Below are positions 181-56,680 of a stretch of 62,534 nt of DNA, in pieces. The DNA comes from Bacteroidales bacterium (lineage in GTDB: Bacteria; Bacteroidota; Bacteroidia; Bacteroidales; Prolixibacteraceae): contig JAATGF010000004.1 in assembly GCA_015654795.1 (NCBI GenBank), positions 1-62,534 of the forward strand. The letters are read 5' to 3'. The position numbers were made by a program, and so were the translations under genes. Under the pieces are notes generated by a model. That model saw only the letters and a list, made by a program, of their open reading frames with translations, was not told where the DNA came from and searched no databases. Within the stretch, counting starts at the first letter, position 1. The number at the start of each line of letters is the position of its first letter.

Positions 181-257
181 TTGCTCCATATTTCCCTCGT
201 ACTTGCTCTATGTCTGCTCTATGTTTGGGTCCATATCGCGTCTGTATCAGCGTCGGA
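181..257 (-). repeat. 11-bp tandem array, seven units
   Basis: Seven consecutive units of exactly 11 bp, beginning TTGCTCCATAT, TTCCCTCGTAC, TTGCTCTATGT and ending TCAGCGTCGGA. Read on the minus strand the units follow the pattern TAYRGANNNAA seen in the other arrays of this window. The units are diverged from one another, so this is an old or selected repeat rather than a fresh slippage product. The four leftmost units are nearly the same as those at 43590-43644. Confidence 0.8.
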
Positions 258-271
258 TCCTCACACGAAGA

Positions 272-402
272 TTTTTAATGACCTTTTCAATGACTGCGAA
301 GCCAATGAACTTTTTTAATGACCTTTTCAATGACGTCTTTATGACCAATGACGTGAAACAATGACGGTGAAGCCAATGAATCTTTCAACGACTATTTTAA
401 TG
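272..402. repeat. AATGAC-unit tandem array
   Basis: Imperfect tandem units of roughly 9-15 bp each containing AATGAC or a close variant. A 23-base stretch at 272-294 recurs exactly at 312-334, 40 bases later, and GAAGCCAATGAA occurs at 297-308 and 368-379. A related array is on the opposite strand at 56556-56602, where GTCATT recurs five times. It lies between the 11-bp array and the GCAAATACGAC module of the composite element. Confidence 0.7.
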
Positions 403-529
403 ACCCTTTCTCCCATCTCCCTTTCCCGCTTTTGCAAATACGACTTCTATTCATTCTTATTACTTAAGTAATACCAGTTAAGAGTTGAATTATATAAAAT
501 TGAGTGATTTTTATTAGGAACAGATTTAT

Positions 530-537
530 TATATTTG
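530..537 (+). promoter_or_regulatory. Bacteroidota -7 box for the beta-propeller gene
   Basis: TATATTTG matches the Bacteroidota -7 consensus TAnnTTTG. It lies about 70 bases before the ATG at 608. No convincing -33 element was seen at the usual distance. Confidence 0.45.
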
Positions 538-607
538 CAAATCCACTTAACCACTAATGTGGTGAACTTCTGATGCTGAAAGGAAATTACAATTTATAAA
601 GTGAACT

Positions 608-1863
608 ATGAAAATCTTGCTATCTGCTTTTTTCTGTGCCTTTTTACTAATTATTTCAATGCACCAGGCCTGGCCCAAAAAGTGTATCAATGGCGTGGCA
701 ATAACCGCGACGGTATCTACAACGAAAACAAATTAATGAAGACATGGCCTGAAAACGGACCTTCGCTTTTATGGTCTTACGAAGAGATCGGCTCCGGTTT
801 TGCAGCTCCCGTTATTACCGCCGATAAAGTGCTTATTAACGGTGAGTCAAATAATGCCGATAGTACGAGTTATCTGTTTGCATTCGATCTGAAAGGCAAA
901 TTACTTTGGAAAGCGCCAAATGGGAAAGAGTATTACGGCAAAGGATTTTCGGCCAATTATCCCGGATCGCGTTCAACACCCACTGTTGCAGGCGATTTGG
1001 TTTATACCACTTCAGGAAAAGGTCGGTTAGCCTGTTATGGACTCGCCACAGGTAAAGAGAAATGGGCCGTTGATATGGTTGCTGATTTAGGCGGATATGA
1101 AAATGAATTTAGCTATTCCGAATCACCATTGATTGACGGCGACAACCTCTTTTGCATGCCCGGCGGAGTAATCAAAAATGTAGCCGCCCTCGACAGATTC
1201 TCAGGTAAAACAATCTGGACCTCAGCAGCCCTCGGCGATACAACTGCCTTTTGCTCTCCAATCATGATCACTTTACCTTCGCGCAAGGTTTTTGTTACCA
1301 TCTCACGACACAATATATTTGGTCTTGATGCAAAGAGCGGAGAACTGCTTTGGTTGCAGAAAGTTGAAAACTTCAAATATGAGGGCGAACATTGCACCAC
1401 CCCCATTTTTGCCGATGGTTTTCTTTATTACCTCGTCGAAGATGAAAATGGGAATGGAGCAGTAAAACTCGAAATAGCCCCCGACGGGAAAAACATTAAG
1501 GAAGTCTGGAGAAACAGGAATGCAACAAATGCAATGGGTGGCTATGTTAAACTCGGCAACCATTTGTTTACAACGACAAAGAAAAAGAAGCTGATTTGTA
1601 TTGACACAAATACCGGAAGCATTGCAGATTCTTTATCCGGGAATAAAGGAGGCCTTATTTATGCCGACAACCGGTTTTATTGTTACAACGAAACCGGCAA
1701 TATGAAGCTCTTCAAATTCGAAAACAATAAATTAGCGGAGGTCAGCAAGTTTAAGATCGACAAAGGAACCAAAGAACATTTTTCGCATCCCGTTATCGGC
1801 AATGGAACATTGTATGTCCGGCATGGTAATGCCTTAATGGCCTACGATATTAAAGAGAAATAA
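608..1863 (+). CDS. PQQ-type beta-propeller protein, apparent frameshift in signal peptide
   Basis: Exported protein of about 420 residues with repeated W-rich propeller blades (for example KEKWAVDMV, GELLWLQKV) typical of the PQQ-binding-like/PQQ_2 repeat family. In such proteins the propeller is usually a scaffold or binding surface; no catalytic role can be read here. The long reading frame opens with a GTG at 601 whose first residues lack the positive charge expected of a signal peptide. The ATG at 608, in another frame, encodes a textbook signal peptide starting MKILLSAFFCAFLLIIS. The two frames join if one G is restored at 671-675 (TGGCCC to TGGGCCC), which gives the cleavage site AWA before QKVYQWRG. 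So a one-base deletion, real or from sequencing, is likely. It stands alone, with a convergent rubrerythrin gene downstream. Confidence 0.75.
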
Positions 1864-1888
1864 AAAGTAACCCCTTGATTAAGAGTGA

Positions 1889-1923
1889 CCGGGTGATTGT
1901 TTGAAATTTGAGCAATCATCCGG
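1889..1923. terminator. Hairpin between convergent genes
   Basis: An 11-bp stem with one G-U pair (1889-1899 with 1913-1923) and a 13-base loop lies between the stop of the beta-propeller gene and the stop of rubrerythrin. It is placed to end transcription from either side. There is no clear T tract. Confidence 0.45.
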
Positions 1924-1952
1924 GTACTATTTCTATAATTAATAATTTACAA

Positions 1953-2531
1953 CTAATAATTCTCTGCCATCTCTTCAAAATATCCAATCGGATGCTGACA
2001 AGCCGGACAACTCAGCGGTGGCTGTTCTCCTTCGTGAACATATCCACATTTGCGGCATTCCCATCTTATTGGTTTATCGCGATGAAAAACGGTTCCATCT
2101 TCAATTCTTTCAAGGAGCTTCTGAAATCTTTTCCCGTGTTCCGCTTCTACTTTGGCAATCATTTTAAAGATAGCCGCAATAGCTGGAAATCCTTCTTCTT
2201 TGGCAATCGCTGAAAACTTTGGGTAGAGCTCCTCCCATCCATTCCTTTCCTCATTAATAGCTGTTTTCAGATTATCAGTTGTTTGATCGGTTATTCCGGT
2301 TGTGAAGACAGTTTTTATTTCAACTGGTCCGCCCTCCATAAATTTGAAGAACTGCTTGGCATGCGACTGTTCCTGTAAAGCCGTCTTCTCAAAGATGGCA
2401 GCAATCTGTTCGTACCCTTCCGCTTTGGCCTTTTCCGCAAAGAATTCATAGCGATTTTTTTGCTGGCATTCGTCAGCAAAAGCTTTCAGCAAATTCTGTT
2501 CTGTAAGTGTTCCTTTTATACTTTTCCCCAT
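1953..2531 (-). CDS. rbr: Rubrerythrin
   Basis: Cytoplasmic non-haem di-iron peroxidase of 192 residues that reduces hydrogen peroxide in anaerobes. The N-terminal four-helix ferritin-like domain carries the expected glutamate and histidine ligands (AFADECQQKNRYEFF, EQSHAKQFF, EERNGWEELYP, EAEHGKRF). The C-terminal rubredoxin domain has the two Cys pairs of an Fe(SCys)4 site (CRKCGY and CPAC). Length and domain order are normal for the family. The start is the ATG at 2531 (MGKSIKGTLTEQNL, usual for the family). It appears monocistronic and has a -7 box about 70 bases upstream. Confidence 0.95.
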   Translation of the reverse strand: MGKSIKGTLTEQNLLKAFADECQQKNRYEFFAEKAKAEGYEQIAAIFEKTALQEQSHAKQFFKFMEGGPVEIKTVFTTGITDQTTDNLKTAINEERNGWEELYPKFSAIAKEEGFPAIAAIFKMIAKVEAEHGKRFQKLLERIEDGTVFHRDKPIRWECRKCGYVHEGEQPPLSCPACQHPIGYFEEMAENY

Positions 2532-2598
2532 ATCGTTGGATTTTTATTTGTCGATAAGATTGAATTATTACCTAAGTTTCTGATAAGTTGCAACAGAC

Positions 2599-2606
2599 CA
2601 AATATA
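2599..2606 (-). promoter_or_regulatory. Bacteroidota -7 box for rubrerythrin
   Basis: On the minus strand the sequence is TATATTTG, matching TAnnTTTG. It is 68 bases upstream of the rubrerythrin ATG. The rest of the 2532-2998 gap holds a short inverted repeat (TCCCGC/GCGGGA, 2771-2787) and the dispersed repeat at 2837-2885. Confidence 0.5.
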
Positions 2607-2836
2607 CGATGATTCGAGGTAAATAAATTAATAATGACTTACGATTTACTGCGACTTTCAACAAAAACACCGATTATTTTGCAATTAAGGAATGAATAAA
2701 CCGATGTCACATTCCCAAACACAAAATCAAACAGTAAGTTGTAATAACAGGCTGCCAAATTTAGAGCTCGTCCCGCGAAATGCGGGATTCAACCAGTGTT
2801 TAAAATATATTTTCAATATGCCAAAGAGGGAATTTG

Positions 2837-2885
2837 TGTAATCTTACTGTAACAAATGATACAAAAACCTTATTCAAATATTACT
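2837..2885 (+). repeat. Short dispersed repeat, copy 1
   Basis: About 47 bases are shared with 23055-23101. The core CTGTAACAAATGATACA (17 bases) is identical at 2847-2863 and 23064-23080, and the flanks are similar. Both copies are intergenic, close to a gene boundary. Because the upstream extension of the lipocalin reading frame runs through this repeat, that extension is not likely to be coding. Confidence 0.6.
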
Positions 2886-2998
2886 TAAACTACGAAGAAG
2901 CAAAAGTGAAGGTAAGTTTAAATGCAATATTTTATCATAGTAAGTACTTAAATCATTATTTATTGGCTAATTTTGAGAAACTTAAAGCAAACCCTGTT

Positions 2999-3538
2999 AT
3001 GAGAATATTCAGTGGTCTCCTGATATTCAGCATTCTATTTGTTTGCAGCTGCACTAAAACCCAAAGCCAAATGATTGATCAAACGACCGTAAAGGAACTC
3101 GACCTGAATCGTTACCTCGGAACCTGGTATGAGATTGCCCGGTTTCCGCACTCCTTCGAAAAGAATCTTGTGGGGGTAACCGCAACCTATTCTTTAAAGG
3201 AAGATGGGATGATTAAAGTTCTGAATGAAGGATTTAAAAACACGCTTGACGGAGAAAAGTCGAAGGCGATCGGAAAGGCAAAGATTCCGAACAAACTGGA
3301 GCCCGGCAAGTTAAAGGTCTCCTTTTTCTGGATCTTTTATGCTGATTACTATGTCCTTGAACTGGATGCTGAGAATTATCAATATGCGATGATCGGTAGT
3401 TCTTCCGACAAATATTTCTGGATTCTGAGCCGCACTCCGCAAATGGATCCTGCGATTTACAATATGTTGCTCGACAAAGCCCGTGAAAGGGGTTATAACC
3501 TGGAGAAACTATATAGGGTGCCGCAAACGGTGAAATAG
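2999..3538 (+). CDS. Lipocalin family lipoprotein (Blc-like)
   Basis: Predicted outer-membrane lipoprotein of 179 residues. The start is placed at the ATG at 2999, giving a lipoprotein signal (MRIFSGLLIFSILFVCSC) with the lipidated Cys at residue 18. The open frame extends upstream to 2834 but that part overlaps a dispersed repeat. The first lipocalin motif is clear (LGTWYEIARFPHSFEKN), followed by the strands of a single beta-barrel and a C-terminal FWILSRTPQMD stretch as in bacterial lipocalin Blc. Members bind lipids or lysophospholipids and are linked to membrane stress; the ligand here cannot be read from sequence. Confidence 0.85.
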   Translation: MRIFSGLLIFSILFVCSCTKTQSQMIDQTTVKELDLNRYLGTWYEIARFPHSFEKNLVGVTATYSLKEDGMIKVLNEGFKNTLDGEKSKAIGKAKIPNKLEPGKLKVSFFWIFYADYYVLELDAENYQYAMIGSSSDKYFWILSRTPQMDPAIYNMLLDKARERGYNLEKLYRVPQTVK

Positions 3539-3801
3539 TTTTTATGGATTATGCTTTTAAAATTCCTGTTTTGTAAATTAGTAAAGTTATTCTACCGGCA
3601 TTCTTAATCATAAACCATATCAATATAATTATTAATCAATTTTTTATTAATTTTATCTCACTTATCAATTCTATTAAAGACACGATTGTTTTATGTTTGT
3701 TATTCATTTCCCCTTTATAATATCCATTGACTTTGCCCCTCTGGCATTTATTAATGATTAAGAAAGACCAGACGCGTTTTATAAACGAAAAATAAATTTT
3801 C

Positions 3802-4689
3802 ATGAAAGATTTTGCAGTTTCCTTAAAATCTGTTTTATTGATTGGAGTTTGCTTTATGTTTTTATCAGCTGTAAATGCCCAAAATGATCGGTTGCCTGAT
3901 CCCAAAATTAAGGCAGGAATTGCCAAAGTGACTGGTACAGTTACTAATTTCAAACCGAAAATAGGTGAAACATTTCCAACGCTGATTTTGTATGTACCAA
4001 ATCCGGTTACCGCAGAAATGAGTCAATTCAAAATGAAATTGAGTGAAGAAGGCAGTTTTCATTTCGAAGTTCCGGTTGAGTGTACTACAACGATTGGCAT
4101 CATTGGTTCAGATATATTCAATTCTAATGTATTCTGCGTCGGTTTGATACCCGGTGAAATAACGAAATTAGAAATCTCTTTTGATGAAACCGGTAAGATA
4201 AAGGCAAATATGGAAAGCAGTCTTGACTTAACTTCCAGTGATATAATAAATTACAGAAAGATGTTCTTTAAGTTCATGGGTGTCCATGATACCACGCGCA
4301 CTTATAACATGACGCCCGAAGATTTCAGTCATTTTGCCATCGAAAAGTTGTTGGTAGAACGATTGAAAAGATCAATAAATGATTCAATACTATCAGAAAA
4401 AGCAAAGAACTACATCACAAATGAATGCAGATTAACTTATCTTAATTATAACCTTCTTGCCTATCAAGACATTATATCTCTGAACTATCGGAATTTTAAA
4501 CCTAAAGCAGCACCCGATAATTTTACGCCCCAGGAACCAAACAGGTCATATTATGCGTTTCTTAAAGATTTTAAACTGAGCGATCCTCAGAATTTATACA
4601 ATTACACTTACTACGAGGTTTTACAAACGATACTTTCTAATAAAACACTCAATATTCCCGCGATCAAAGATATCCCGGTAAATGACTGA
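3802..4689 (+). CDS. TlpA-like thioredoxin-fold protein, N-terminal fragment (stopped by TGA)
   Basis: N-terminal 295 residues of an exported Bacteroidota redox protein. A signal peptide (MKDFAVSLKSVLLIGVCFMF, cleaved after VNA) is followed by a beta-rich domain like the N-terminal domains found before TlpA modules, and a helical middle part. The frame ends with TGA at 4687-4689, but translation continues in the same frame straight into the thioredoxin domain that begins after 4690, reading LKEVKTTMADLIGS. A single TGG-to-TGA or CGA-to-TGA change would explain this. Without the stop the protein would be about 512 residues, a usual length for these two-part proteins. Likely a pseudogene or assembly error rather than two genes. 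Confidence 0.7.
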   Translation: MKDFAVSLKSVLLIGVCFMFLSAVNAQNDRLPDPKIKAGIAKVTGTVTNFKPKIGETFPTLILYVPNPVTAEMSQFKMKLSEEGSFHFEVPVECTTTIGIIGSDIFNSNVFCVGLIPGEITKLEISFDETGKIKANMESSLDLTSSDIINYRKMFFKFMGVHDTTRTYNMTPEDFSHFAIEKLLVERLKRSINDSILSEKAKNYITNECRLTYLNYNLLAYQDIISLNYRNFKPKAAPDNFTPQEPNRSYYAFLKDFKLSDPQNLYNYTYYEVLQTILSNKTLNIPAIKDIPVND

Positions 4690-4710
4690 CTTAAAGAAGT
4701 AAAAACAACG

Positions 4711-5340
4711 ATGGCTGATTTGATAGGTTCGGATACCGGTTTGTTCTATGATATGCTAACTGCCAATGCCTATGCCCGGCAGTTTAACGAAGAGCTAAAA
4801 CCTTTGTCAGATAAACAGAAAGAAAATATCGGAAGCTATTTTAAGAATGAAGAATTCACAAAGATTCTTTTAAAAAGGAATGAAGCGGTCATAAAGTTGG
4901 AAAAAGAAAAAAACTATTTCAAAACAGTCGTTAATAAAACACCAGCAGTTCCCAAAGAAGCAGTAATGAATGCCATTATCGCCAAATATAAAGGGAAAGC
5001 AGTTTTAGTCGATTTTTGGGCGACCTGGTGCGGTCCTTGTATGGCTGCGATGAAAGAGACCCGGGAAGTCAAAAATGAAATGCATGGTAAAGACATCGCA
5101 TTTGTATATATCACCAATGGTTCTTCTCCCCAAAAACTATGGGAGGAGAACATCAAAATAATCGGTGGAGAGCATTATTATCTCACAAAGGAGGAATGGA
5201 GATATGTAATGGATAGTTTTGGTTTTGAAGGTATACCAAGTTATCTGTTTTATAACACAAAAGGTGAACTGAAAAATAAAGTTACCGCTTACCCAGGATC
5301 GGAAAAGATGCTGAAGATGATCAAAGAATTGTTGCCATAA
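4711..5340 (+). CDS. TlpA-like thioredoxin-fold protein, C-terminal fragment
   Basis: C-terminal 209 residues of the same split gene, in the same frame as 3802-4689. The thioredoxin domain has an intact active site (DFWATWCGPCMAAMKE) and the cis-proline region (GIPSYLFYN). Proteins of this class reduce disulfides in the periplasm, often as part of envelope redox maintenance. The ATG at 4711 lies only 21 bases after the stop, so re-initiation could make this piece, but it would lack a signal peptide and stay in the cytoplasm. I treat the two pieces as one disrupted gene. Confidence 0.7.
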   Translation: MADLIGSDTGLFYDMLTANAYARQFNEELKPLSDKQKENIGSYFKNEEFTKILLKRNEAVIKLEKEKNYFKTVVNKTPAVPKEAVMNAIIAKYKGKAVLVDFWATWCGPCMAAMKETREVKNEMHGKDIAFVYITNGSSPQKLWEENIKIIGGEHYYLTKEEWRYVMDSFGFEGIPSYLFYNTKGELKNKVTAYPGSEKMLKMIKELLP

Positions 5341-5659
5341 CGATTCGAATCTTGGTATGCTCTTCGTTTGCAGCGAGGTGCATAAGAAGGTTTGAATCGA
5401 TAAAATTAATACTTCGAAACGGATCAGCGACAATTCCGAAAGCTGATTATGTAAAGTATCTTGGTTTATTTTATCAATATAATCCAGCTTATCGATCTGC
5501 TTATAGTACAAATCTTAATTCACCAAAGGCCCTAAATTCAATAATCACATCGTCTGGCTGTTATCAAAAATAGTAATTACAAAATTTATGTTTTAAGAGA
5601 ACGTTCAAATGGAAACAAATTTTAAATTCAATTCAATCTTAATTTTAAAATATTTAAAT
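5341..5659. other. Gene-free gap with an imperfect inverted repeat
   Basis: No convincing gene. An imperfect inverted repeat pairs CGATTCGAATCTT (5341-5353) with AAGGTTTGAATCG (about 5388-5400) and could act as a terminator for the split thioredoxin-fold gene. The open frame 5352-5573 needs a TTG start and has no recognisable product. Confidence 0.4.
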
Positions 5660-6205: not shown

Positions 6206-6211
6206 TATTTT

Positions 6212-6246
6212 TGCCCCCTCTATTGGGAATTCCGGTGGAGGGGGCA
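6212..6246 (+). terminator. GC-rich hairpin after the exported protein
   Basis: A perfect 9-bp stem TGCCCCCTC (6212-6220) with GAGGGGGCA (6238-6246), loop of 17 bases, starts 6 bases after the stop codon at 6205. A second small palindrome (TCCCGTGAGGGA) follows at about 6251. Probably a terminator, although T residues precede rather than follow the stem. Confidence 0.5.
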
Positions 6247-6286
6247 GCATTCCCGTGAGGGATCATTATTTTTTAAATATTAAAAT

Positions 6287-8352: not shown

Positions 8353-8778
8353 AACAATTGCCACTAAATAAAAAAGGCTCTATGACGGGGCGTGTGGGTA
8401 AATTTTGCGAACCGCTTTCAAATGGTTTATGCAATAAGCAGCTGGCTTTTGGTCCCGAAGTATCTGAACAGCTGGCATGATAATACTAACTACCTGAATC
8501 TAATTATTTTAAAATTAAGATAATTCCTTATTTTTTAGTAAGCGAGTCTGCCAATCACTAATAACCATTAGCAATCATTAAAAAATCCAATTATCCATAC
8601 AAATCGTTATAGAGCCATAAAAAATCCTTTTTTCCGATCTTCGTTGCTCTTTAGATGGGAAGATATTTAAGAATGCATAATAAAATGGATTTGAACAGGG
8701 ATGCCGGTTTCATGAAGGCTTAGGAAATACAGGTTATGAAACACAAAATACCCATAAAACTATGACCGGAAAAAGGAG

Positions 8779-8833
8779 CCCGAAGTTGGTACGAGGAAGG
8801 TACGGAGTTGGTACGGACCAGATACGAAGGAAG
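8779..8833 (+). repeat. 11-bp tandem array, five units
   Basis: Units of exactly 11 bp: CCCGAAGTTGG, TACGAGGAAGG, TACGGAGTTGG, TACGGACCAGA, TACGAAGGAAG. It aligns with the reverse complement of 43945-43988, which has one unit fewer, so the number of units varies between copies. Confidence 0.8.
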
Positions 8834-8896
8834 TGGAGCGCCTTTATCGATAGATAAAGGTAATGAGGATTGGGATAATTCAGATTAATTTAAACT

Positions 8897-8926
8897 GAGA
8901 GGCCACCAGAGGCCGCGAGGGGCCGT
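8897..8926 (+). repeat. 10-bp tandem array, three units
   Basis: GAGAGGCCAC, CAGAGGCCGC, GAGGGGCCGT follow each other with a period of 10 bp. The equivalent place in the 43.9 kb copy has a 10-bp array of unrelated sequence (CGTCCATTTC units). Confidence 0.6.
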
Positions 8927-14698: not shown

Positions 14699-14856
14699 AA
14701 ATTTTTTAACAAGACCATGAACGTATAAGATGTGCGATTATAAATAAATAACTGAATATTTAAACTAAATACCAGAAATGGAATAATGGCATATTTGCAA
14801 ATAGTTTAATCGCATGTCTTTTATTATATTATATACTTTTACTTATTCTGTTCCCG

Positions 14857-14911
14857 TATGGAATCAACATGGACTTAATATGTAGTTGATGTGGAATTAA
14901 CATAGACTTAA
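14857..14911 (+). repeat. 11-bp tandem array, five units
   Basis: TATGGAATCAA, CATGGACTTAA, TATGTAGTTGA, TGTGGAATTAA, CATAGACTTAA, each exactly 11 bp. A sixth poorer unit may follow. Downstream at 14961-14973 is AAAATACGACATT, matching the AAATACGAC module that ends the copies at 434-444 and 43471-43480. The rest of the 14672-15313 gap (642 bases) shows no gene. Confidence 0.8.
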
Positions 14912-15313
14912 CACAAAGAGAGCATTTCTTTTATATTATTGTTAGTTTATATGCGACTTTCAAAATACGACATTAGATTATTCACATTACCTACTGATCA
15001 GTTATGAAGATTGCTTTAAGATTTTTGTATCCGTGGAACACTCCATCTCAAATTTATGTTACAGGCTAAGAGATTGAAATTTAGCATTTATTTTATATCC
15101 CACTTTCGCTCACCATTATTTCTTTTAGTTAAGGAAAAAGGATTTATAGCAATCCTTAATTGATTCGGCAGTCAGTCATAATAAATTAACAATCAGACAT
15201 TCGCGAGATTAACTTTAAACCGGATAGTGTAAAATCCGATTTTTTAAATAATATAACTTTACTTCGTGCTGAATCCATTATCTTTGACAAACTGTAAATC
15301 TGTAAATGAAGCA

Positions 15314-22391: not shown

Positions 22392-23003
22392 ATGAAGATT
22401 ATTTGCATAGGTCGTAATTATTTAAAACATGCCCGCGAACTCGAGCACGATATCCCCACGGAACCGGTTTTTTTCATGAAGCCGGATTCCTCTTTATTAC
22501 TGGATAACAGGCATTTCTATATCCCCGGATTTTCAAATGAAATTCATTACGAGGTTGAATTAGTCGTTAAGATTAATCGCCTAGGAAAGAGTATTGAAGC
22601 ACGTTATGCGCACCGTTATTACGATGAGATTGGTCTCGGTGTCGATTTCACCGCCCGCGATGTGCAACGTCAACTTATCGAAAAAGGATTACCATGGGAA
22701 AAAGCCAAAGCATTTGACTCCGCAGCTGTTTTAGGGAAATTTATCCCAAAGGAAGAGCTCGGCGATCCTGATCAGATTGATTTTTCGCTGCAAAAAAATG
22801 GAGAGATTGTACAACAGGGAAATTCACGCGATATGATCTTTGACGTCGACACCATCATCGAACATATCTCCCGGTTTGTGACTTTAAAGATTGGAGATTT
22901 GATTTATACAGGCACACCGGCAGGTGTTGGTCCTGTTAAAATCGATGACCAGCTCGAAGGATTTATTGGTGAAAGGAAAATGTTCGACTTCCTGGTGAAG
23001 TAA
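22392..23003 (+). CDS. Fumarylacetoacetate hydrolase family protein
   Basis: 203-residue cytoplasmic metal-dependent C-C hydrolase or decarboxylase of the FAH family, similar in size to acylpyruvase/YcgM-type proteins. The N-terminus KIICIGRNYLKHARELE, the FFMKPDSSLLL segment, the metal ligands in EIHYEVELVVKI and GLGVDFTARDVQ, and the YTGTPAGVGPVK block are typical. Bacterial members act on acylpyruvates or oxaloacetate enol; the substrate here cannot be fixed. The gene stands alone between the exonuclease and a repeat-rich gap. Confidence 0.9.
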   Translation: MKIICIGRNYLKHARELEHDIPTEPVFFMKPDSSLLLDNRHFYIPGFSNEIHYEVELVVKINRLGKSIEARYAHRYYDEIGLGVDFTARDVQRQLIEKGLPWEKAKAFDSAAVLGKFIPKEELGDPDQIDFSLQKNGEIVQQGNSRDMIFDVDTIIEHISRFVTLKIGDLIYTGTPAGVGPVKIDDQLEGFIGERKMFDFLVK

Positions 23004-23054
23004 TAATCCATCTCTATTTTCACACTGCCAACTCCGGTTTTCTGTAATCTTCTT

Positions 23055-23101
23055 ATAATCTTTCTGTAACAAATGATACAGAAAGGTTATTCAAAGCTTA
23101 C
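23055..23101 (+). repeat. Short dispersed repeat, copy 2
   Basis: Second copy of the repeat at 2837-2885, sharing the exact core CTGTAACAAATGATACA at 23064-23080. It is about 50 bases beyond the FAH-family stop. Confidence 0.6.
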
Positions 23102-23398
23102 ACAAAGTCACGAGTTGGTGTGATGAAAAGGGTACTGCCCCTCGCCTTCCTGAAAAATTGAAGATTTGACTATTAATCTGAGTTCGAAATAAAAAGAGCC
23201 GAAATAAAGCCTTGCAGACTTCATTTCCGGATTATTGACATATTCATTTCTTTTCTTTCTATAAAAGCCATTAATAAAATACGATGTTGACCCGGCATTC
23301 CGCGAGTACCTAAAAGATAAATATATAATTTATGATTATAATCGGCAGATAGGTCGATAGAAGGTACTTTTTAAGCAAAAACCGACCATTTTCTCTTG

Positions 23399-23466
23399 TT
23401 TTTAAGGTCCGAATATGGTACGAATGAAACCCTAATGAATCCCCAATGAAATACGGACCTTAAAAA
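23399..23466 (+). repeat. 11-bp array enclosed in a 13-bp perfect inverted repeat
   Basis: TTTTTAAGGTCCG (23399-23411) and CGGACCTTAAAAA (23454-23466) are perfect complements. Between and partly inside them are 11-bp units TACGAATGAAA, CCCTAATGAAT, CCCCAATGAAA, TACGGACCTTA (23419-23462). This is the only array in the window bounded directly by a hairpin stem. It is in the 639-base gap 23004-23642, which holds no gene. Confidence 0.75.
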
Positions 23467-23580
23467 GCACTTAAAAAGGGAAGATTTGGAGCAGTTTTAT
23501 AGGATTGAATCAGGGTCAATTAATCATAAAACAGAGTGTGCGTCATTATGGTAAAGTGACAGCATTTAATTGGAACCGCC

Positions 23581-23636
23581 CTCTTTATTTTTTAAAATTT
23601 TAGATTCAAATTTATATCGAACTCAGGTTATTATTT
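23581..23636 (+). repeat. Repeat module shared with the window start
   Basis: Positions 23603-23630 are identical to 31-58 over 28 bases, and the preceding CCCTC/T-rich stretch is similar. At the window start this module is followed by the rest of the composite element; here it ends at the 3' end of pgl. Confidence 0.75.
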
Positions 23637-23642: not shown

Positions 23643-24371
23643 TTAAAGCTTACTTTTCTTTCCCGTCATACTTGCCTCATCACCAAACCAGTGCAATTCT
23701 CCTTTAGGGTGGATATGCGACGCCGGATAAACTGATGAGTTTTCAGAATTGTGTATTATTTCATTGAAAATGTGAGCCTTTGATTCTCCCGAAATCAGGA
23801 AGGCAACTCTTTTGGCATTATTCAAAACTTTCCCGGTTAAAGTAATTCGTCGTTGCCCGGTAGTAGGGTGAAAAGCTATTCCCGTTATATCATCAGAATG
23901 CATTAATTGCATCTGATTGGGGAAAATAGAGGCAGTATGCCCATCATCGCCTAATCCCAACATACTCAGATCAAATACAGGCCAATTATTACTGATCGGG
24001 ACAAGCGATTTTATTTCCAGTCCATACCTTTTTGCCTCCTCAGTTGGGTCTGCTTCCCCTTTTATTCGGTGTATCTGGCTTTGTGACAGCCTAATCTTTG
24101 AAAACAGGAGTTTATTTACTACGCCAAAATTACTCTCCGGATCATATGGTGCGACCATCCTTTCGTCACCCCACCAGAAGTTGATTTTTTGCCAGGGAGC
24201 CTCCTGCGAATATTTTTCAGCCAATAGTGAAAACAACAACGATGGTGTTCTGCCGCCCGATAATGCCAGATGAAAATCCCCTTCAGCTTCTTTTGTCCAG
24301 CTAATTAATTGTAAAGCAAATGAATCAGCAAGATCTTCGGGTGTTTTACCCGTATGTAAATATGGTTTCAT
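23643..24371 (-). CDS. pgl: 6-phosphogluconolactonase
   Basis: 242-residue enzyme of the DevB/SOL type that hydrolyses 6-phosphogluconolactone to 6-phosphogluconate in the oxidative pentose phosphate pathway. HLALSGGRTPSLLFSLL, INFWWGDERMVAPYDPESN, LGLGDDGHTASIFP and RRITLTGKVLNNAK are the standard family blocks. Length is normal. It lies 33 bases after zwf on the same strand, which makes a two-gene operon with two consecutive steps of the pathway. Confidence 0.94.
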   Translation of the reverse strand: MKPYLHTGKTPEDLADSFALQLISWTKEAEGDFHLALSGGRTPSLLFSLLAEKYSQEAPWQKINFWWGDERMVAPYDPESNFGVVNKLLFSKIRLSQSQIHRIKGEADPTEEAKRYGLEIKSLVPISNNWPVFDLSMLGLGDDGHTASIFPNQMQLMHSDDITGIAFHPTTGQRRITLTGKVLNNAKRVAFLISGESKAHIFNEIIHNSENSSVYPASHIHPKGELHWFGDEASMTGKKSKL

Positions 24372-43386: not shown

Positions 43387-43504
43387 ATTTATTCTATTTT
43401 CAGAAAAAGAAACCGGAAAACTGATTATTTCACTGACTGTGACGATTATAAGTACCGGGAATAAAATAATGTCGTATTTACAAAAGCGGGAAAGGAAGAG
43501 GGGA

Positions 43505-43536
43505 TGATGGGGTGATAAGGCGATGGGGCGATGGGG
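43505..43536 (+). repeat. 8-bp tandem array, four units
   Basis: TGATGGGG, TGATAAGG, CGATGGGG, CGATGGGG, exact period 8 bp, inside a purine-rich stretch. It takes the place that the AATGAC array holds in the copy at 1-470. Confidence 0.65.
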
Positions 43537-43589
43537 CGAGTCAATTGGGAGATGAGAAGAGGGGGAGATGCGGAGAAAAGTCAACCAAA

Positions 43590-43644
43590 CATAGAGCAAA
43601 CATAGAGCAGGTATAGAGCAAGTACGAGGGAAATATGGAGCAAA
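43590..43644 (+). repeat. 11-bp tandem array, five units
   Basis: CATAGAGCAAA, CATAGAGCAGG, TATAGAGCAAG, TACGAGGGAAA, TATGGAGCAAA, each exactly 11 bp. It aligns with the reverse complement of the array at 181-257 but has fewer units. Confidence 0.8.
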
Positions 43645-43851
43645 CCCATCCGGGCTGTTTGTTTCAATTACGACAGATATGTATTAAAAGCGCACTGTGC
43701 TTCGAAAGTCTACAAATCCCGTATCGGCAAAAGACGACATTTATGGATTCCCATTACTTAATTACTTCGCCAGCTTACTTAATTATCGCGTTAAACTGGA
43801 TCAAACTGAAAAGTGGAGGGATAAAAATCATCAAAGAAAAGAGCAAGGCAG

Positions 43852-43881
43852 CGTCCGTCGCCGTCCATTTCCGTCCATTTC
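43852..43881 (+). repeat. 10-bp tandem array, three units
   Basis: CGTCCGTCGC, CGTCCATTTC, CGTCCATTTC, exact period 10 bp. At the matching place in the copy at 8.9 kb the array also has a 10-bp period but another unit. Confidence 0.6.
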
Positions 43882-43944
43882 AATAAAAGTTAATCCAAGC
43901 TATACGTTTTTTCACTACCTTTATCGATACGATAAAGGTACTCC

Positions 43945-43988
43945 ACTTCCTCCGTACCAACTCCGTACCTTCCTCGCACCAACTTCGG
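43945..43988 (-). repeat. 11-bp tandem array, four units
   Basis: CTTCCTCCGTA, CCAACTCCGTA, CCTTCCTCGCA, CCAACTTCGGG on the plus strand; the reverse complement aligns with 8779-8833, which has five units. Confidence 0.8.
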
Positions 43989-44194
43989 GTTCCTTTCTCC
44001 GGTGACAATTTTATGGGTATTTAGTGTTTCATAAGCTGTATTTCCTGACCTTCATGAAACTGGCATCCCTGTTCAAATCCATTTTATTATGCATTCTTAA
44101 ATATCTCCCCCCCCACAATTCTGTTTTGATCTGTTACTATGAATTTTGTCGTACACCCATGAAATGTTTCATTCACTTCTCCATTTATATCTTT

Positions 44195-50082: not shown

Positions 50083-50243
50083 AGAACAAGGGTCAAAAGA
50101 TAATGATTAATGGCAAAAGTTGAAGGACACAGGACCTGCTGACTTTTGCACTTCCCTTCTCATTTTCTATCACATTCATTTACAAGGTTGTGACCTGCTC
50201 TTTTATTCAACAAACATTTAGAAAATTGTTTATCAACAAAAAA

Positions 50244-50702: not shown

Positions 50703-50911
50703 TTTTTGAATTAAGGGCTTTAGGTAAGGTGAATCAGTAGATGGCACATTCTACATTTCACATAACGGAAAGATAACACGGCATGAATCTCTCCATACCT
50801 TCCTGAAATCATCCTCATATGTTTGATCCCTCCGGGGGTCACAGATTTATAGAATGTTATCGATTTCTATAAATATATGACATTAATATGGCATTATTCC
50901 ATTTTCTGTAC

Positions 50912-51658
50912 TTATTTAAAAACCACCTCTTTAAAATGGTATTTGTTAACTTTCCCGGCCCTGGTTTCGATTATTAATCGTCCGATTTGATCAACGCCAA
51001 GAATCCGCCCTTCAAAATCGCCATTTTCGTCTGAATAAGACGACCAGCAATTAAGCTGATATAACATTTCGGTATAATCGTCATCAATTTGTCTGAATTT
51101 TCGGTCGCAAAGTTGGTGGTAACGGGCATCAATTTTGCGGCATAATGTGGCAAGCGATTCTTCAAGATCATAAGTTTGTCCTGTGACCTGGCTTAGCGAC
51201 ACCGGGTTTGGCGCATCACTGATAAATTTCTGCTGATTGATATTCAAACCAATACCTACAATGCATGAAGCAATTTTGTCTATTCGGATAGAGTTCTCGA
51301 TAAGGATTCCCGCCACTTTCCCATTTCCAATATAAACATCATTCGGCCATTTAATCGAAACCTGATCATCAGTCTGTTCTTTCAAAAAATCGGCGACGCC
51401 AAGTGAGATTGCTTTCGAGATTTCGAATTGCCGCATAATTTCCAAAAATTCGGGATAAAGAAGAATGCTGAACGTCAAATTTTTACCCGGTTCGCTTTCC
51501 CACTTGTTAGAAACCTGTCCACGACCGTCAAGCTGGCTGTTTGCAACAAAAATAGTTCCTTCTGGCAGACGTTTTGTCAGTAGCTGCGTTGCGGCATAAT
51601 TATTGGTTGACCCTAATTCATCGATTCGTTCGATTTTCGATCCGATAATTTCGTTCAT
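50912..51658 (-). CDS. birA: Biotin--[acetyl-CoA-carboxylase] ligase
   Basis: 248-residue enzyme that activates biotin with ATP and attaches it to the carboxylase carrier protein. The catalytic domain shows IERIDELGSTNNYAATQLL, the biotinyl-AMP loop in LDGRGQVSNKWESEPGKNLT, SIKWPNDVYIGNGKVAGILI and GIGLNINQ. There is no N-terminal DNA-binding domain, so it is a ligase only (group I), not the E. coli type repressor. The start is placed at the ATG at 51658; an upstream extension to 51685 is unlikely. Divergent from rsfS. Confidence 0.94.
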   Translation of the reverse strand: MNEIIGSKIERIDELGSTNNYAATQLLTKRLPEGTIFVANSQLDGRGQVSNKWESEPGKNLTFSILLYPEFLEIMRQFEISKAISLGVADFLKEQTDDQVSIKWPNDVYIGNGKVAGILIENSIRIDKIASCIVGIGLNINQQKFISDAPNPVSLSQVTGQTYDLEESLATLCRKIDARYHQLCDRKFRQIDDDYTEMLYQLNCWSSYSDENGDFEGRILGVDQIGRLIIETRAGKVNKYHFKEVVFK

Positions 51659-51749
51659 TTTTGTCTGGTATATTTGAGAGATCAAAGTAAAAACTATTAT
51701 TTCATAAGATTACATGACCATTTCTTTATTTTTCTATCAGACAAAAAAT

Positions 51750-51757
51750 TATCTTTG
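51750..51757 (+). promoter_or_regulatory. Bacteroidota -7 box for rsfS-ftsH
   Basis: TATCTTTG matches TAnnTTTG, 18 bases before the rsfS ATG. Confidence 0.55.
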
Positions 51758-51774
51758 CACTTTAAATATTACAT

Positions 51775-52152
51775 ATGGTTAATCATGCCATTCAAGATGG
51801 CTCAATCGATTTAATAGAAGCGATTATCGAGGGGATTCAACGCAAAAAAGGGCTTGAAATCGTCGATATTGATCTTCAAACAATTAATAATACCGAATGT
51901 GATCATTATATCATTTGTCATGGAACATCTAATACTCATGTAGATGCCATTGCCCATTCGGTAGAAGAGACTGTAGAAGAACTTAAAAATGAACCTGCGT
52001 GGCATCGAGATGGTTATAATCAGGCACAGTGGATATTACTCGATTACGCAAACATAATGGTTCATGTGTTTCAGGAACCCGTTCGCAGGTTGTACGATCT
52101 TGAAAGTTTATGGGCCGACGGAAAAATTTTAAATATTGACGCTGACATTTAA
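51775..52152 (+). CDS. rsfS: Ribosomal silencing factor RsfS
   Basis: 125-residue RsfS/YbeB/Iojap protein, which binds ribosomal protein uL14 and prevents subunit joining when nutrients are short. GLEIVDIDLQTINNTECDHY, IICHGTSNTHVDAIAHSVEE and QWILLDYANIMVHVFQEPVR (end of the fold, with the usual FYDLE-type RRLYDLESLW) match the family. It is the first gene of a run with ftsH 6 bases downstream. Confidence 0.95.
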   Translation: MVNHAIQDGSIDLIEAIIEGIQRKKGLEIVDIDLQTINNTECDHYIICHGTSNTHVDAIAHSVEETVEELKNEPAWHRDGYNQAQWILLDYANIMVHVFQEPVRRLYDLESLWADGKILNIDADI

Positions 52153-52158
52153 TTGATT

Positions 52159-54189
52159 ATGGCTGAGAAAGAGACAAAAAATAACCCTGGGAATACGATC
52201 CCCAAGGGAAACAAAAAACCCGCAGGCGGTGTAAAATTTGGGCCCAAATTTAACCCAATTTACATTTATGGGATTTTGTTGATTGCATTTTTTGCAATCC
52301 AATATTTTACTTCAGGTGGCGCACCGGTTGAGACCAGTTGGCAAGAAGTGAAAAATACGATGCTTAAAAATGGCGATATTGACAAAATAGTCGTCGTAAA
52401 TAAATCCCAATCAGATATTTATCTAAAAGAAGGTTCCTACGATAAATATAAAAGTAAACTCAATCAGGGTTTTGGATCACCTGCAAAAACAGGCCCGCAT
52501 TTTTTCTTTACAATCGGATCGGTTGATGTTTTCGAGAAAAATCTCGAAAGCGCACAGGCAGAGTTTGGTGATAATGCGAAGGTAACCTTGACCTACGAAA
52601 TTCGTCACGATTATTTTAGCGAAGTTTTAAGCTGGCTATTTCTTCCACTGGTACTTATTGCCGTTTGGTTCTGGATTTTCAGACGAATGAGTAAAGGTGG
52701 CAGTGGCGGTGGCAACATCTTCAATGTTGGAAAATCGCAGGCTAAAATTTTTGATAAAGAGTCGAGAGTGAGTACTTCGTTTAAAGAAGTAGCTGGTCTT
52801 GCAGAAGCTAAACAAGAGATTGAAGAAATTGTAGAATTTCTTAAGAATCCTGACAGATATACCAAACTTGGTGGGAAGATTCCAAAAGGCGCTTTACTAG
52901 TTGGCCCTCCCGGAACAGGTAAAACACTGTTAGCCAAAGCGGTTGCGGGAGAAGCAGATGTTCCGTTTTTCTCAATGTCGGGTTCCGACTTTGTGGAGAT
53001 GTTTGTAGGAGTAGGCGCATCACGCGTACGCGATTTGTTTAAACAAGCCAAAGAGAAAGCTCCGTGTATTGTCTTCATAGATGAAATTGACGCAATTGGT
53101 CGCGCCAGGGGTAGAAACCCTAATATGGGATCGAATGACGAACGCGAGAATACGCTTAATCAATTACTTACCGAGATGGATGGTTTCGACACCAACTCCG
53201 GGGTAATTATATTGGGTGCTACTAACCGCGCAGATATTCTCGACAGGGCCTTGATGCGTGCCGGAAGGTTTGACCGTCAGATTCATGTTGAATTGCCTGA
53301 TGTGATTGATCGTAAAGAAATATTTATGGTACATCTCCGGCCGCTTACCTTATCAGAAGATGTAAATGTGAATTTTCTCGCCAAACAAACACCGGGATTC
53401 TCGGGTGCCGATATTGCCAATGTTTGTAACGAAGCCGCCCTTATTGCTGCCCGTAAGAAGAAAACTAAAGTTGAAAAACAGGATTTTCTGGATGCCGTTG
53501 ACCGTATTGTCGGAGGTCTTGAAAAAAAGAATAAAATCATTACAGCTGATGAAAAAGCGATTATTGCTTACCACGAAGCTGGCCATGCAACAGTAAGCTG
53601 GTTACTCGAACACGCACATCCTTTGGTTAAAGTGACCATTGTACCGCGTGGAAAAGCTCTGGGAGCAGCATGGTATTTACCCGAAGAGCGTCAAATCACC
53701 ACACGTGAACAGATGCTGGATGAAGTATGTGCCACTTTGGGAGGAAGAGCCGCCGAGACCGTTGTCTTTTCCAGAATCTCATCGGGCGCTCAAAACGACC
53801 TGGAGAAAGTAACAAAAACAGCCTATTCAATGATCTGCTATTTTGGGATGAGCGATAAAGTTGGAAATGTCAGTTACTACGATTCGTCGGGACAAAGTGA
53901 TTATAGTTTCAATAAACCTTATAGCGAAAAAACGGCCGAATTGATTGACGAAGAAATCAAGGCCTTGATTGATAATGCTTTTATCCGGGCTAAAGATATT
54001 CTAATCAAAAATGCGGCAGGACATAAACAGCTCGCGGAATTGCTTCTTGAACGCGAAGTCATTTTCACCGAAGACATGGAAAATATTTTTGGACCGCGTC
54101 CCTGGGGAAAGAAAAAAGATGACGAAAATCCATTAAAGGATGACGATACTCAGCCTTCAAATTTAGATTCAGAAATAACCAAGATATAA
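52159..54189 (+). CDS. ftsH: ATP-dependent zinc metalloprotease FtsH
   Basis: 676-residue membrane-anchored AAA+ protease that degrades misfolded and regulatory membrane proteins. Two membrane segments (about residues 34-52 and 155-175) flank a periplasmic loop. The AAA domain has [18 protein letters not shown] (Walker A), [16 protein letters not shown] (Walker B) and [20 protein letters not shown] (second region of homology). The protease domain has the zinc motif [14 protein letters not shown]. The start is the ATG at 52159, 6 bases after rsfS; the TTG at 52153 is less likely. cdsA follows. Confidence 0.97.
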
Positions 54190-54211
54190 TTTTTGAACAA
54201 TTAAAAATCGG

Positions 54212-55039
54212 TTGAAATTGGAAGAGTTTCGTACCCGAACACTTTGGGGAATCCTTTATGTAGCAGTTCTTCTGGGAGCAATCCTTCTTGGATCATATAC
54301 CTTTGCAGCACTTTTTTTAGTTCTTTCGGTTTTAGCTCTCCGCGAGTTCTATTCATTGTGTCGTATTGCAGGGTTTTCTCCGCAAGTTTATCCCGGTCTA
54401 ATTACAGGTGCCGCTATTTTTATTTTAACATTTTTCGTGGCGCAGCATACCTTCACATACAGCGTTTTTAATTACCTTATACCGTTCATTTATGCCTTCC
54501 CGGTTTACGAGCTTTTTCGTAAAAAGGAAAATGCGCTCGCAAATATCGCTCTTACGGGATTTGGAATCGTCTTTGTAACTGTCCCATTCTCGATACTTAA
54601 CTTCATTGCATTTCCCGAGTTCGATGGATTCAATGTTTACAATTACGGATTGCTGATCAGCCTGTTTGTATTTGTATGGGCAGGCGATTCAGGAGCTTAT
54701 ATTTTTGGAGTCCGGTTTGGCCGTCATCGCTTATTCGAAAGAATTTCACCTAAAAAATCCTGGGAAGGTTTGTTCGGAGGGGTTATTACCGCGATTGCAA
54801 CCGCCTGGGTTCTTAACTTTATATTTCCACAGTATAATATGGTTCTTCTGATAGTTATGGCTATTGTCGTTGTCATTGCCGGGACCCTTGGCGATCTGGT
54901 TGAATCGATGATGAAACGAAGCATTGGAATGAAAGATTCGGGCCGTTTTATGCCTGGTCATGGGGGATTGCTCGACCGTTTCGATAGTATCCTTCTGGCT
55001 TCTCCTGTTATTTATTTTGTATTCCAATTTTTTCGCTGA
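54212..55039 (+). CDS. cdsA: Phosphatidate cytidylyltransferase
   Basis: 275-residue inner-membrane enzyme that makes CDP-diacylglycerol from phosphatidate and CTP. It has seven or eight membrane segments and the C-terminal family signature MKRSIGMKDSGRFMPGHGGL followed by LDRFDS. The start is TTG at 54212 (KLEEFRTRTLWGILYVAVLL), since no ATG precedes the first membrane segment. It is 22 bases after ftsH and is followed by psd and pssA: three consecutive phospholipid genes. Confidence 0.95.
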   Translation: MKLEEFRTRTLWGILYVAVLLGAILLGSYTFAALFLVLSVLALREFYSLCRIAGFSPQVYPGLITGAAIFILTFFVAQHTFTYSVFNYLIPFIYAFPVYELFRKKENALANIALTGFGIVFVTVPFSILNFIAFPEFDGFNVYNYGLLISLFVFVWAGDSGAYIFGVRFGRHRLFERISPKKSWEGLFGGVITAIATAWVLNFIFPQYNMVLLIVMAIVVVIAGTLGDLVESMMKRSIGMKDSGRFMPGHGGLLDRFDSILLASPVIYFVFQFFR

Positions 55040-55051
55040 AGATTATTTACT

Positions 55052-55059
55052 TAATTTTG
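55052..55059 (+). promoter_or_regulatory. Bacteroidota -7 box for psd-pssA
   Basis: TAATTTTG matches TAnnTTTG, 20 bases before the psd ATG. It may give an internal promoter in the ftsH-cdsA-psd-pssA run. Confidence 0.5.
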
Positions 55060-55079
55060 CACCACAATAGTTTAAACTT

Positions 55080-55730
55080 ATGAGAGTTCACAAAGAAGGG
55101 TTTCTGGTTATAGTGGTAGCGTTTTTAATCTGGTTGGCGCTCAATATTGTTGTCGGGATAACAGGAGAACTTTATTTCCGCTGCTTTATGTTTTTGGTCT
55201 CTACCCCGGTTTTAGTATTGGTTATCCGCTTTTTCCGGCATCCCCGACGTTCCATCGAACTCAAACCGAATAGTGTTTTATCTCCTGCTGACGGGCAGAT
55301 TGTGGCTATCGAGGAAACCATTGAATCAGAATACTTTGGCGATCGCAGACTTCAGGTCTCTGTTTTTATGTCGGTCTATAATGTTCATGTAAACTGGGTC
55401 CCGGTTCCTGGAATTGTAAAATATTTCAAACATCATAACGGTCGGTTCCTGGCTGCATATCTTCCTAAATCATCAACCGATAACGAAAGGGCAACAACTG
55501 TCATCCAGATGGCTGATGGTACTGAAATTCTGGCAAGGCAAATTGCAGGAGCAGTTGCGAAAAGGATCATTACCTATCCAAAGGAGGGTGCCATTGTGAA
55601 TCAGCGGAATGAACTTGGTTTTATCAGGTTTGGCTCGCGGGTTGATATTTTTCTACCTGTCGGAACAAAGGTTTATATCGAATTAGGTCAGCTTGTGACT
55701 GGAAGTCAAACTGTTATTGCAGACCTTTAA
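55080..55730 (+). CDS. psd: Phosphatidylserine decarboxylase proenzyme
   Basis: 216-residue short-type decarboxylase that turns phosphatidylserine into phosphatidylethanolamine. Two N-terminal membrane segments (residues about 8-50) are followed by VLSPADGQIVAIEET, the NVHVNWVPVPGIVKYFKHHN block and, near the C-terminus, LGFIRFGSRVDIFLPVGTKV. The Gly-Ser pair in RFGSR is the place where the chain cleaves itself to make the pyruvoyl cofactor. Length fits the short type common in Bacteroidota. pssA starts 10 bases after its stop. Confidence 0.95.
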   Translation: MRVHKEGFLVIVVAFLIWLALNIVVGITGELYFRCFMFLVSTPVLVLVIRFFRHPRRSIELKPNSVLSPADGQIVAIEETIESEYFGDRRLQVSVFMSVYNVHVNWVPVPGIVKYFKHHNGRFLAAYLPKSSTDNERATTVIQMADGTEILARQIAGAVAKRIITYPKEGAIVNQRNELGFIRFGSRVDIFLPVGTKVYIELGQLVTGSQTVIADL

Positions 55731-55740
55731 TAATTCAAAA

Positions 55741-56475
55741 ATGATCCGCAAGAATATTCCGAATTTTATTACCTGTTTAAATGTCGTATCGGGGAGTCTT
55801 GCCGTACTTTTCGCAATTAAAGGACAACTTACCATTTCGGTGATTTTAATCATTGCAGCTGCCACCTTTGACTTTTTTGACGGATTGGTAGCGCGTTGGC
55901 TTAAAGCCTATTCGCCAATGGGAAAAGAGCTCGATTCGCTTGCGGATATGATCTCTTTTGGCCTCGCTCCGGGTGCCCTCATGATGGTTATGATGGAATA
56001 TGCCCTGTTTGGACTGAATGTCCGGGCCGAGAGTTTCGCCGGTTTATCGATCTGGGAATTAACGTGTATATCAGCATCTTTACTGATTCCGGTCTTTTCT
56101 GCGCTTCGGCTTGCCAATTTTAACATCGATACACGACAATCAGAATCATTTATCGGTTTACCTGTACCTGCAAATGCATTATTTATTGCCGCTTTAGCGC
56201 TGATCACGGAGCATGGCAAATTCGAACAACTTGATACATTTATTTTGCAACCAGTTGTTCTTCTACTGATTACTATAACAATGTCACTCCTTTTGGTTTC
56301 AGAACTTCCAATGTTCTCGCTAAAGCTAAAGAATTTGTCGTGGGCTGACAATAAGGTGCGGTTTACATTCCTGGCTATTTCAGCTATCCTTATTTTGGCC
56401 TTCAATATTTATGGTATCGCTGCTGCAATCGTGAGTTTTATCCTTATTTCGATTTTCCTTCATTTAAAAAAATAA
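55741..56475 (+). CDS. pssA: CDP-diacylglycerol--serine O-phosphatidyltransferase
   Basis: 244-residue inner-membrane CDP-alcohol phosphotransferase, which makes phosphatidylserine from CDP-diacylglycerol and serine; the product is the substrate of Psd. The family motif (D-G-x2-A-R-x8-G-x3-D-x3-D) spans DFFDGLVARWLKAYSPMGKE and continues LDSLADMISFG. Six or more membrane segments. The start is the ATG at 55741 (MIRKNIPNFITCLNVVSGS); an ATG at 55717 would overlap psd. Last gene of the phospholipid run. Confidence 0.95.
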   Translation: MIRKNIPNFITCLNVVSGSLAVLFAIKGQLTISVILIIAAATFDFFDGLVARWLKAYSPMGKELDSLADMISFGLAPGALMMVMMEYALFGLNVRAESFAGLSIWELTCISASLLIPVFSALRLANFNIDTRQSESFIGLPVPANALFIAALALITEHGKFEQLDTFILQPVVLLLITITMSLLLVSELPMFSLKLKNLSWADNKVRFTFLAISAILILAFNIYGIAAAIVSFILISIFLHLKK

Positions 56476-56529
56476 TCAATACAATCTGATCATCAGATAA
56501 TTAGGTCGTATTTATCCAGGTTTTCGAAT

Positions 56530-56680
56530 GTGATTGGGAGAGCAGGGATTAATTTGTCATTCAATAGTCATTGAAAAGGTCATTAAGTCATTAAAGTCAT
56601 TGAAAATCTTCGTTTGTGGATCTGATGATATAGGACCTGATACCAGACTTAGTATAGAGCAGGTGGGAGGGAGGTATAGC
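56530..56680 (-). repeat. Composite intergenic repeat element, copy at 56.6 kb
   Basis: Read on the minus strand it has an 11-bp array (56676-56641, three clear units such as TATAGAGCAGG, the least regular of the set), then a GAAGATTTT cap near 56610, then an array with five AATGAC units (56602-56556). This order matches 181-402 of copy 1. It lies in the 462-base gap after pssA. No gene is seen in the gap; a 7-bp palindrome ATCTGAT/ATCAGAT (56484-56498) may end pssA. Confidence 0.65.

Follow-up and report, generated by a model that had tools for sequence, protein, structure and literature searches.

We analyzed a 62,534-bp stretch of the genome of a Bacteroidales bacterium of the family Prolixibacteraceae (contig JAATGF010000004.1, positions 1 to 62,534; hereafter the window), whose intergenic DNA carries runs of short units repeated head to tail with a period of 11 bp. 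Overall, these arrays are very probably minisatellites lying inside non-autonomous elements derived from insertion sequences (ISs), of the type known as miniature inverted-repeat transposable elements (MITEs), with at least four families in this genome, here numbered I to IV. The elements are short, bear terminal inverted repeats, occur in multiple copies and lie mostly between genes (the ends of families I and IV were read by eye). Moreover, the ends of two families match those of transposase-bearing ISs in congeners: an IS630 type with broken genes for family II, and an IS982 type for family III. Within the genome assembly (3.68 Mb in 180 contigs, 69% complete), the window corresponds to contig C166; the closest named relatives of one of its proteins were found in uncultured Bacteroidia and Prolixibacteraceae genomes, at 76-81% identity.

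To detect the arrays, we ran an unguided scan for period-11 self-similarity over the 33 intergenic stretches of the window (9,062 bp), with 20 dinucleotide shuffles as a control. Six segments scored at least 10 (204-227, 3627-3663, 8781-8826, 14858-14913, 23403-23450 and 43586-43624), compared with a mean of 0.0 and a maximum of 0 in the shuffles; three segments scored at least 12, and no other period between 5 and 25 gave more than two segments. An earlier note on this sequence had listed seven array sites, and the scan recovered five of them. The site at 43945-43988 was found only by homology, and at 56641-56676 neither the period scan nor Tandem Repeats Finder detected a significant 11-bp array. 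The AT-rich segment at 3627-3663 was absent from that list. The note's run at 181-257 (reverse strand) holds up for about four clean units, after which it drifts into degenerate sequence with a slip of phase.

The period is also abundant elsewhere in the same genome. We sampled 20 stretches beyond the window (391 kb), a non-random set of long contigs drawn mostly from the match lists of families I to III. This sample contained 17 period-11 segments where 0.4 were expected, making 11 the commonest short period; periods 8 (7 segments), 10 (5), 12 (6), 22 (10) and 33 (6) were also in excess, the period-22 and period-33 segments being multiples of 11. The excess over expectation in both data sets rejects a chance origin and runs counter to the two outcomes that the earlier note had named as refuting it, a lack of excess over shuffled controls and a lack of arrays beyond the window. 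The head-to-tail units without unique spacers reject an array of clustered regularly interspaced short palindromic repeats (CRISPR), as the earlier note had maintained. Its statement that the arrays are intergenic likewise stands for most of them: across the sample and the window, 1 of 21 lies within an open reading frame (ORF) of at least 100 amino acids. Relative to neighboring genes, eight arrays are in a tandem, five in a convergent and five in a divergent setting, against a background of 90, 14 and 19, respectively.

The sequence around the arrays is itself dispersed. Searches of the genome yielded at least 50 matching pieces for family I, at least 61 for family II, 16 for family III and at least 24 for family IV, each count including the query; 40 of 132, 40 of 224 and 40 of 77 first-look candidates were scored for families I, II and IV, respectively, and one copy can yield several pieces. 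In the 391-kb sample, 22 of 28 period-11 segments scoring at least 10 matched families I to IV, although 3 of these 22 were other repeats of family II. Taken together, the fetched loci, chosen mostly as family matches, gave 100 arrays: 47 of family II, 26 of family I, 11 of family III, 1 of family IV (its other copies were fetched subsequently) and 15 without a family. Two inverted arrays at L178:19704-19811, with another 11-bp unit of the GCACAGATAGT type, match none of the families.

Family II has the best defined ends. In the window it is represented by a 406-bp element on the reverse strand (61-466, both ends present with 1 and 3 mismatches), which contains the run at 181-257 and starts just past the family III end at 1-58, and by a 312-bp element on the forward strand (43449-43760, ends with 2 and 0 mismatches), whose array occupies 43590-43644 (forward). 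The two match in inverted orientation (57-227 against 43597-43764, 84%). A decayed forward-strand fragment with approximate limits lies at 56556-56690 (73% over 82 bp to 253-334). Copies start with TAAGTAATGGGAATAAATAAATGTCGTCTTTTGCC, and those that retain the other end close with TAAGTRCCGGGAATAAAATAATGTCGTATTTGC, or a variant of it, in inverse orientation. Allowing up to three mismatches, the 27-base end pattern occurred at 66 sites in the own genome, compared with 0 for a reversed-pattern control. Of 17 genomes of the same genus, 9 contain it; of 23 further genomes, none does. We collected 19 both-ended entries of this type, representing 18 elements of 255-651 bp, a length too short for a full transposase. 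Four of the elements have no array, and 14 of the 19 entries have TA at both ends, which may reflect target duplication at TA; the search pattern itself starts with TA.

A candidate parental element for family II was found in congeners. In genome G011, a broken IS630-type gene is preceded, at a distance of 195 bp, by a family II end (3 of 27 positions mismatched); two pieces of the gene match the NF033545 model in order (E values of 2e-9 and 2e-6, both under the curated cut-off); Pfam matches to this gene are weak. A broken relative, 68% identical, occurs in G010; it has an end that points inward and mismatches at 6 of 31 positions, the best match in one shuffled copy of the locus having 11 mismatches. 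A third and weak relative (E = 5e-4) was found in G007, with no such end nearby.

Two kinds of secondary repeat were observed in family II. Degenerate GTCATT/AATGAC repeats, spaced by about 9-13 bp, occur in the window at 272-404 and 56556-56606 and at loci L187 and L189; they sit in the family II elements themselves and are also found in congener genomes. Period-8 arrays of the GATGGGGC type occur in a family II element of the window (array at 43506-43539) and in the congener G009 (L305:15644-15725).

The ends of family III are of the IS982 type. Its 457-bp window copy (23174-23630, forward strand) has both end motifs, TAAYCTGAGTTCGAWATAAA, and its array (23410-23464, forward) lies within a palindromic stem (TTTTTAAGGTCCG ... 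CGGACCTTAAAAA). The right end of another forward-strand element, cut by the contig start, occupies 1-58, with the end motif exact at 39-58; positions 2-58 match 23574-23630 at 91% on the same strand. Several other copies have only one of the end motifs. In the congener G008, the same TAAYCTGAGTTCGAWATAAA ends flank a 1,046-bp element (L327, G008:C187:197-1242), in which an open frame some 320 codons long encodes a clear IS982 transposase (NF033520, E = 1.2e-78, above the cut-off). As a separate observation, 98 sites of family III ends were found in G064, from another family of the order.

Gene spacing at the family III locus is consistent with insertion. The genes beside the element (22392-23003 and 23643-24371) are 640 bp apart in the window; in L001, L002 and L006, which are all the loci among 80 related ones that hold both genes, they are 139, 45 and 41 bp apart (tblastn limits), and no copy of the element is seen between them. 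In L004, only the first of the two genes is present. The shorter spacing fits an insertion of family III in the lineage of the window. Another small palindromic repeat (23017-23129) takes up part of the 640-bp interval. This repeat matches its own inverse at 74% over 116 bp, and a related stretch lies at 2839-2884.

Family I is found at 8657-8900 (forward strand), limits that are approximate, the left one being the end of similarity and the right one the query end. Its array of five units (8779-8833, forward) keeps its unit order in most aligned copies. An inverted copy lies at 43798-44130 (reverse strand), with the end GGATCAAACTGAAAAG at 43798 and an approximate limit at the other end; its array of about four units (43945-43988, reverse) is below the scan threshold alone. 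The two copies match between 8657-8866 and 43912-44110 in inverted orientation, at 87% in the longest match, and the family ends read by eye as GGATCAA. Some copies among L088-L117 have a left extension, GGGTGTACGACAAAATTC, and period-10 repeats of the GAGGCCNNNA type, also recognized by eye, are found 3' of the array in these loci. Family IV occupies 14766-14993 (forward strand; copies were read and end letters checked), with its array at 14857-14911 (forward); 15 copies were fetched, and the arrays taken from 10 of them comprise 2 to 6 units. Several of the matching pieces span query positions 2-223 or 2-229, and the ends resemble by eye the IS630-type ends of family II. A stretch at 50885-50920 matches the left end of family IV (14759-14795) in inverted orientation, at 84% of 37 bp, and is perhaps a solo end.

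We next consider how the arrays change within the elements. Array length ranged from 1.9 to 16.2 units in the 100-array set, the longest being L178:2176-2353. Among 29 aligned copies of family I, net array length was the same in 24, differed by 11 bp in three and by 1 bp in two. For comparison, flank blocks of 45-55 bp, positioned outside two flank indel hot spots, changed length in 6 of 56 measurable cases. Mean divergence from the consensus in these copies was 0.090 for array columns and 0.074 for flank columns, and phase-specific conservation was not significant (p = 0.18). The arrays thus show no detectably stronger preservation of phase than the flanks do of length, and constraint was detected on no part of the 11-bp unit, all of these results being for family I only.

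Taken together, these data suggest the following course of events. Tandem duplication of an 11-bp unit would have given rise to an array inside a founder element, on one occasion or on a few. A transposase acting in trans on the terminal inverted repeats would then have spread the elements with the arrays inside them, while slipped-strand replication or unequal recombination would add or remove whole 11-bp units and base substitution would make the units diverge. With units gained and lost whole in this way, the period would be kept without selection, and the arrays themselves may have no function. The earlier note had argued that the period must be maintained by selection or by a special way of copying; the data do not support this, most sites being copies of a few elements dispersed with the array inside. 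Elements with the family II end type also do not need the arrays in order to spread: of 62 end sites examined in the own genome (66 in total), 25 show no array (contig ends cut some of these), and among congener elements with similar ends, none of eight two-ended (best score 8.8) and none of 12 one-ended elements reach an array score of 10.

Several observations weigh against this account. First, arrays are not confined to the recognized families: 6 of the 28 sampled period-11 segments match none of them, and in 26 of 130 arrays the flanks on both sides lie outside the families. Second, neither a target duplication nor a base-level empty site was recovered, the family III locus included; an empty site for the pair of elements at 43.4-44.1 kb was sought in congeners and none was found, G007 carrying a different 573-bp interval at the corresponding 43.4-44.2 kb site. 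Third, a search of the own genome, at its 69% completeness, with the gene piece from G011 gave no relative at E <= 1e-3, so that current mobility is questionable. Fourth, the elements extend little beyond this genome: with the best 6-7 candidates per genome scored across 101 genomes, family I gave one 29-bp match outside the own genome (2 of 101 genomes matched, the own included), and family II gave pieces of only 27-84 bp in 8 of 100 relatives (9 of 101 genomes with the own). Finally, if the arrays arose independently, it is not easy to see why families that differ in their ends should have a period, and in some pairs sequence words, in common.

This last point deserves closer inspection. We compared the 8-mers common to the arrays of different families with those expected after column permutation. 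The observed numbers were 19 compared with 1.8 for families I and II (p = 0.004), 20 compared with 0.9 for I and III (p = 0.002), and 17 compared with 1.6 for II and IV (p = 0.002); p values are uncorrected. Families II and III had seven common 8-mers compared with 1.8 (p = 0.04), while I-IV and III-IV had none once the arrays were cut to whole units (without this trimming, 6 and 1). One of the 26 arrays of family I and four of the 47 of family II, which were other element repeats, were left out of these tests, and 10 of the 15 family IV copies were used. Within family III, three arrays out of 11 (L161-L163) resemble the family in the array alone. When they were dropped, the counts were 19 compared with 2.0 for I-II, 17 compared with 1.6 for II-IV, 13 compared with 0.7 for I-III (p = 0.002) and 2 compared with 1.1 for II-III (p = 0.28). 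With the array L097 left out as well, I-III retained 7 compared with 0.6 (p = 0.008) and I-II 17 compared with 1.3. Differently ended families have period 11 in common, and array words in three of six pairs.

One explanation, which we regard as possible and would add to the MITE reading rather than set against it, is that the array is an exchangeable cassette: one ancestral module would have moved between MITE families by recombination or template switching, and the families would have diverged around it. The word excess in I-II, I-III and II-IV, which survives removal of the array-only loci (and, for I-II and I-III, of L097), speaks for such exchange, as does the array of L097 itself, a family I copy that is identical at 28 of 30 bases to an array in other flanks (L162), and L314, a chimera of family II and family IV sequence. 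Many of the common words come from only one or two arrays, such as L097, L157 or L144; this pattern resembles exchange more than it does a universal motif, yet it also counts against the cassette. The case is further weakened by the pairs I-IV and III-IV (trimmed) and II-III (array-only loci removed), by the weak agreement of position matrices (see below) and by the flanks: only 4 of 130 arrays stand between flanks of different families, and two of the four are GTCATT repeats that separate neighboring elements. A broader version, in which a portable cassette has passed, within one lineage, between MITE families of different transposase classes (IS630-type, IS982-type and one unassigned), through array recombination or a host protein that reads arrays and favors their carriers, is in our view slightly less probable.

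Agreement between the position matrices of different families is weak: of the six pairs, two fall below p = 0.05, uncorrected (I-II 0.15, I-III 0.35, I-IV 0.048, II-III 0.53, II-IV 0.015, III-IV 0.74), and a strict common consensus is rejected. A separate comparison gave 0.19 for I-II, 0.43 for I-III and 0.53 for II-III, and, against the single family IV array of the window, 0.19 for I, 0.016 for II and 0.84 for III. The TAYGGANNNAA consensus proposed in the earlier note is, accordingly, a loose one.

That note had also suggested that one unit per helical turn would place each unit on the same face of the DNA. Arrays of this kind could bind host proteins or transposase subunits and so aid transposition or regulate neighboring genes, and the prevalence of period 11, its recurrence in four families and the words common to I-II, I-III and II-IV beyond period and composition would suit such a role. 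Nevertheless, we consider it unlikely. In family I, conservation of motif and phase above background, as a helically phased binding array should display, was not observed; the matrix comparison is mostly not significant, and the array-free end sites and congener elements lacking strong arrays also argue against a binding role. In addition, the period itself differs in related genomes. In 20 stretches from 11 congeners (388 kb), nine period-8 segments were found where 0.2 were expected and one period-11 segment where none was, and in the 80 related loci the counts were 20 compared with 0.8 for period 7 and 5 compared with 1.8 for period 11; neither set is random for its genomes. Period 11 is thus particular to the lineage of the window. 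A universal helical period is rejected, and with congeners favoring period 8, the helix-face idea does not apply generally.

Even less probable is a role in RNA, as a transcribed terminator, stabilizer or small RNA. The family III array does lie inside a stem, the letters of which differ on both sides in L151 from those in L148 and L153 (by eye), and folding z scores were -2.6 for the window copy of this stem and -3.1 for the family I array with the next hairpin. Yet the stem appears in the minimum-energy fold of only about 4 of 10 copies, six array-only folds had z scores of -0.1, -0.4, -1.9, -3.0, -0.3 and 0.0, and an Rfam scan of the window at the gathering score gave no match. Palindromes are, moreover, common in transposable elements.

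Pfam searches of 10 window proteins revealed ordinary housekeeping, transport and surface domains, and a tRNA scan of the window found none.

Intergenic short tandem repeats, modular or degenerate in make-up, are familiar from the BOX elements of pneumococcus and the heptamer arrays (STRR) of cyanobacteria, which differ from the window arrays in host, sequence and period. The earlier note knew of no described family like these arrays; MITEs with internal minisatellites have, however, been described in Porphyromonas gingivalis (PMC4596501). The nearest case we found there is BrickBuilt, a MITE with a 23-nt unit and IS5-type ends (GAGACCTTTGCA), present in 19 copies in strain ATCC 33277, with 1 to 22.8 imperfect tandem units and no spacers. 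Like the window elements, it belongs to the Bacteroidales, is dispersed between genes, carries its repeats internally between a leader and a tail with inverted-repeat ends, and has a parental IS deduced from those ends. The window elements differ in their 11-bp unit, in their IS630-type and IS982-type ends and in the presence of several families per genome; unit length and ends together reject membership in BrickBuilt. MITE464/PgRS of the same species is likewise a MITE with internal tandem repeats, but with a 41-nt unit and IS5-type ends, GAGACTGTTGCA (PMC4596501).

The two end types also have counterparts elsewhere. RUP of Streptococcus pneumoniae is short and intergenic, has IS630-type ends, inserts at TA and occurs in 108 copies; it differs in its length of 107 bp, and the word "tandem" is absent from the review describing it (PMC2229807). 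MITECca01 of Cardinium, in the same phylum, is an IS982-derived MITE that has likewise spread through its genome; it differs in size (about 240 bp, 169 copies), and "tandem" is again absent from the text describing it (PMC9769881). In the literature searched, mostly without subscription papers, we found no description of 11-bp arrays in IS630 or IS982 MITEs. The analysis turns a set of puzzling arrays into a countable system of small mobile-element families, with parental-type ISs in relatives and a variable number of units. It also raises a testable question: why should families whose ends differ have arrays, within a single genome, that agree in period and have words in common? MITE-borne bacterial minisatellites, described with IS5-type ends in P. 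gingivalis (PMC4596501), are here extended to two further IS types.

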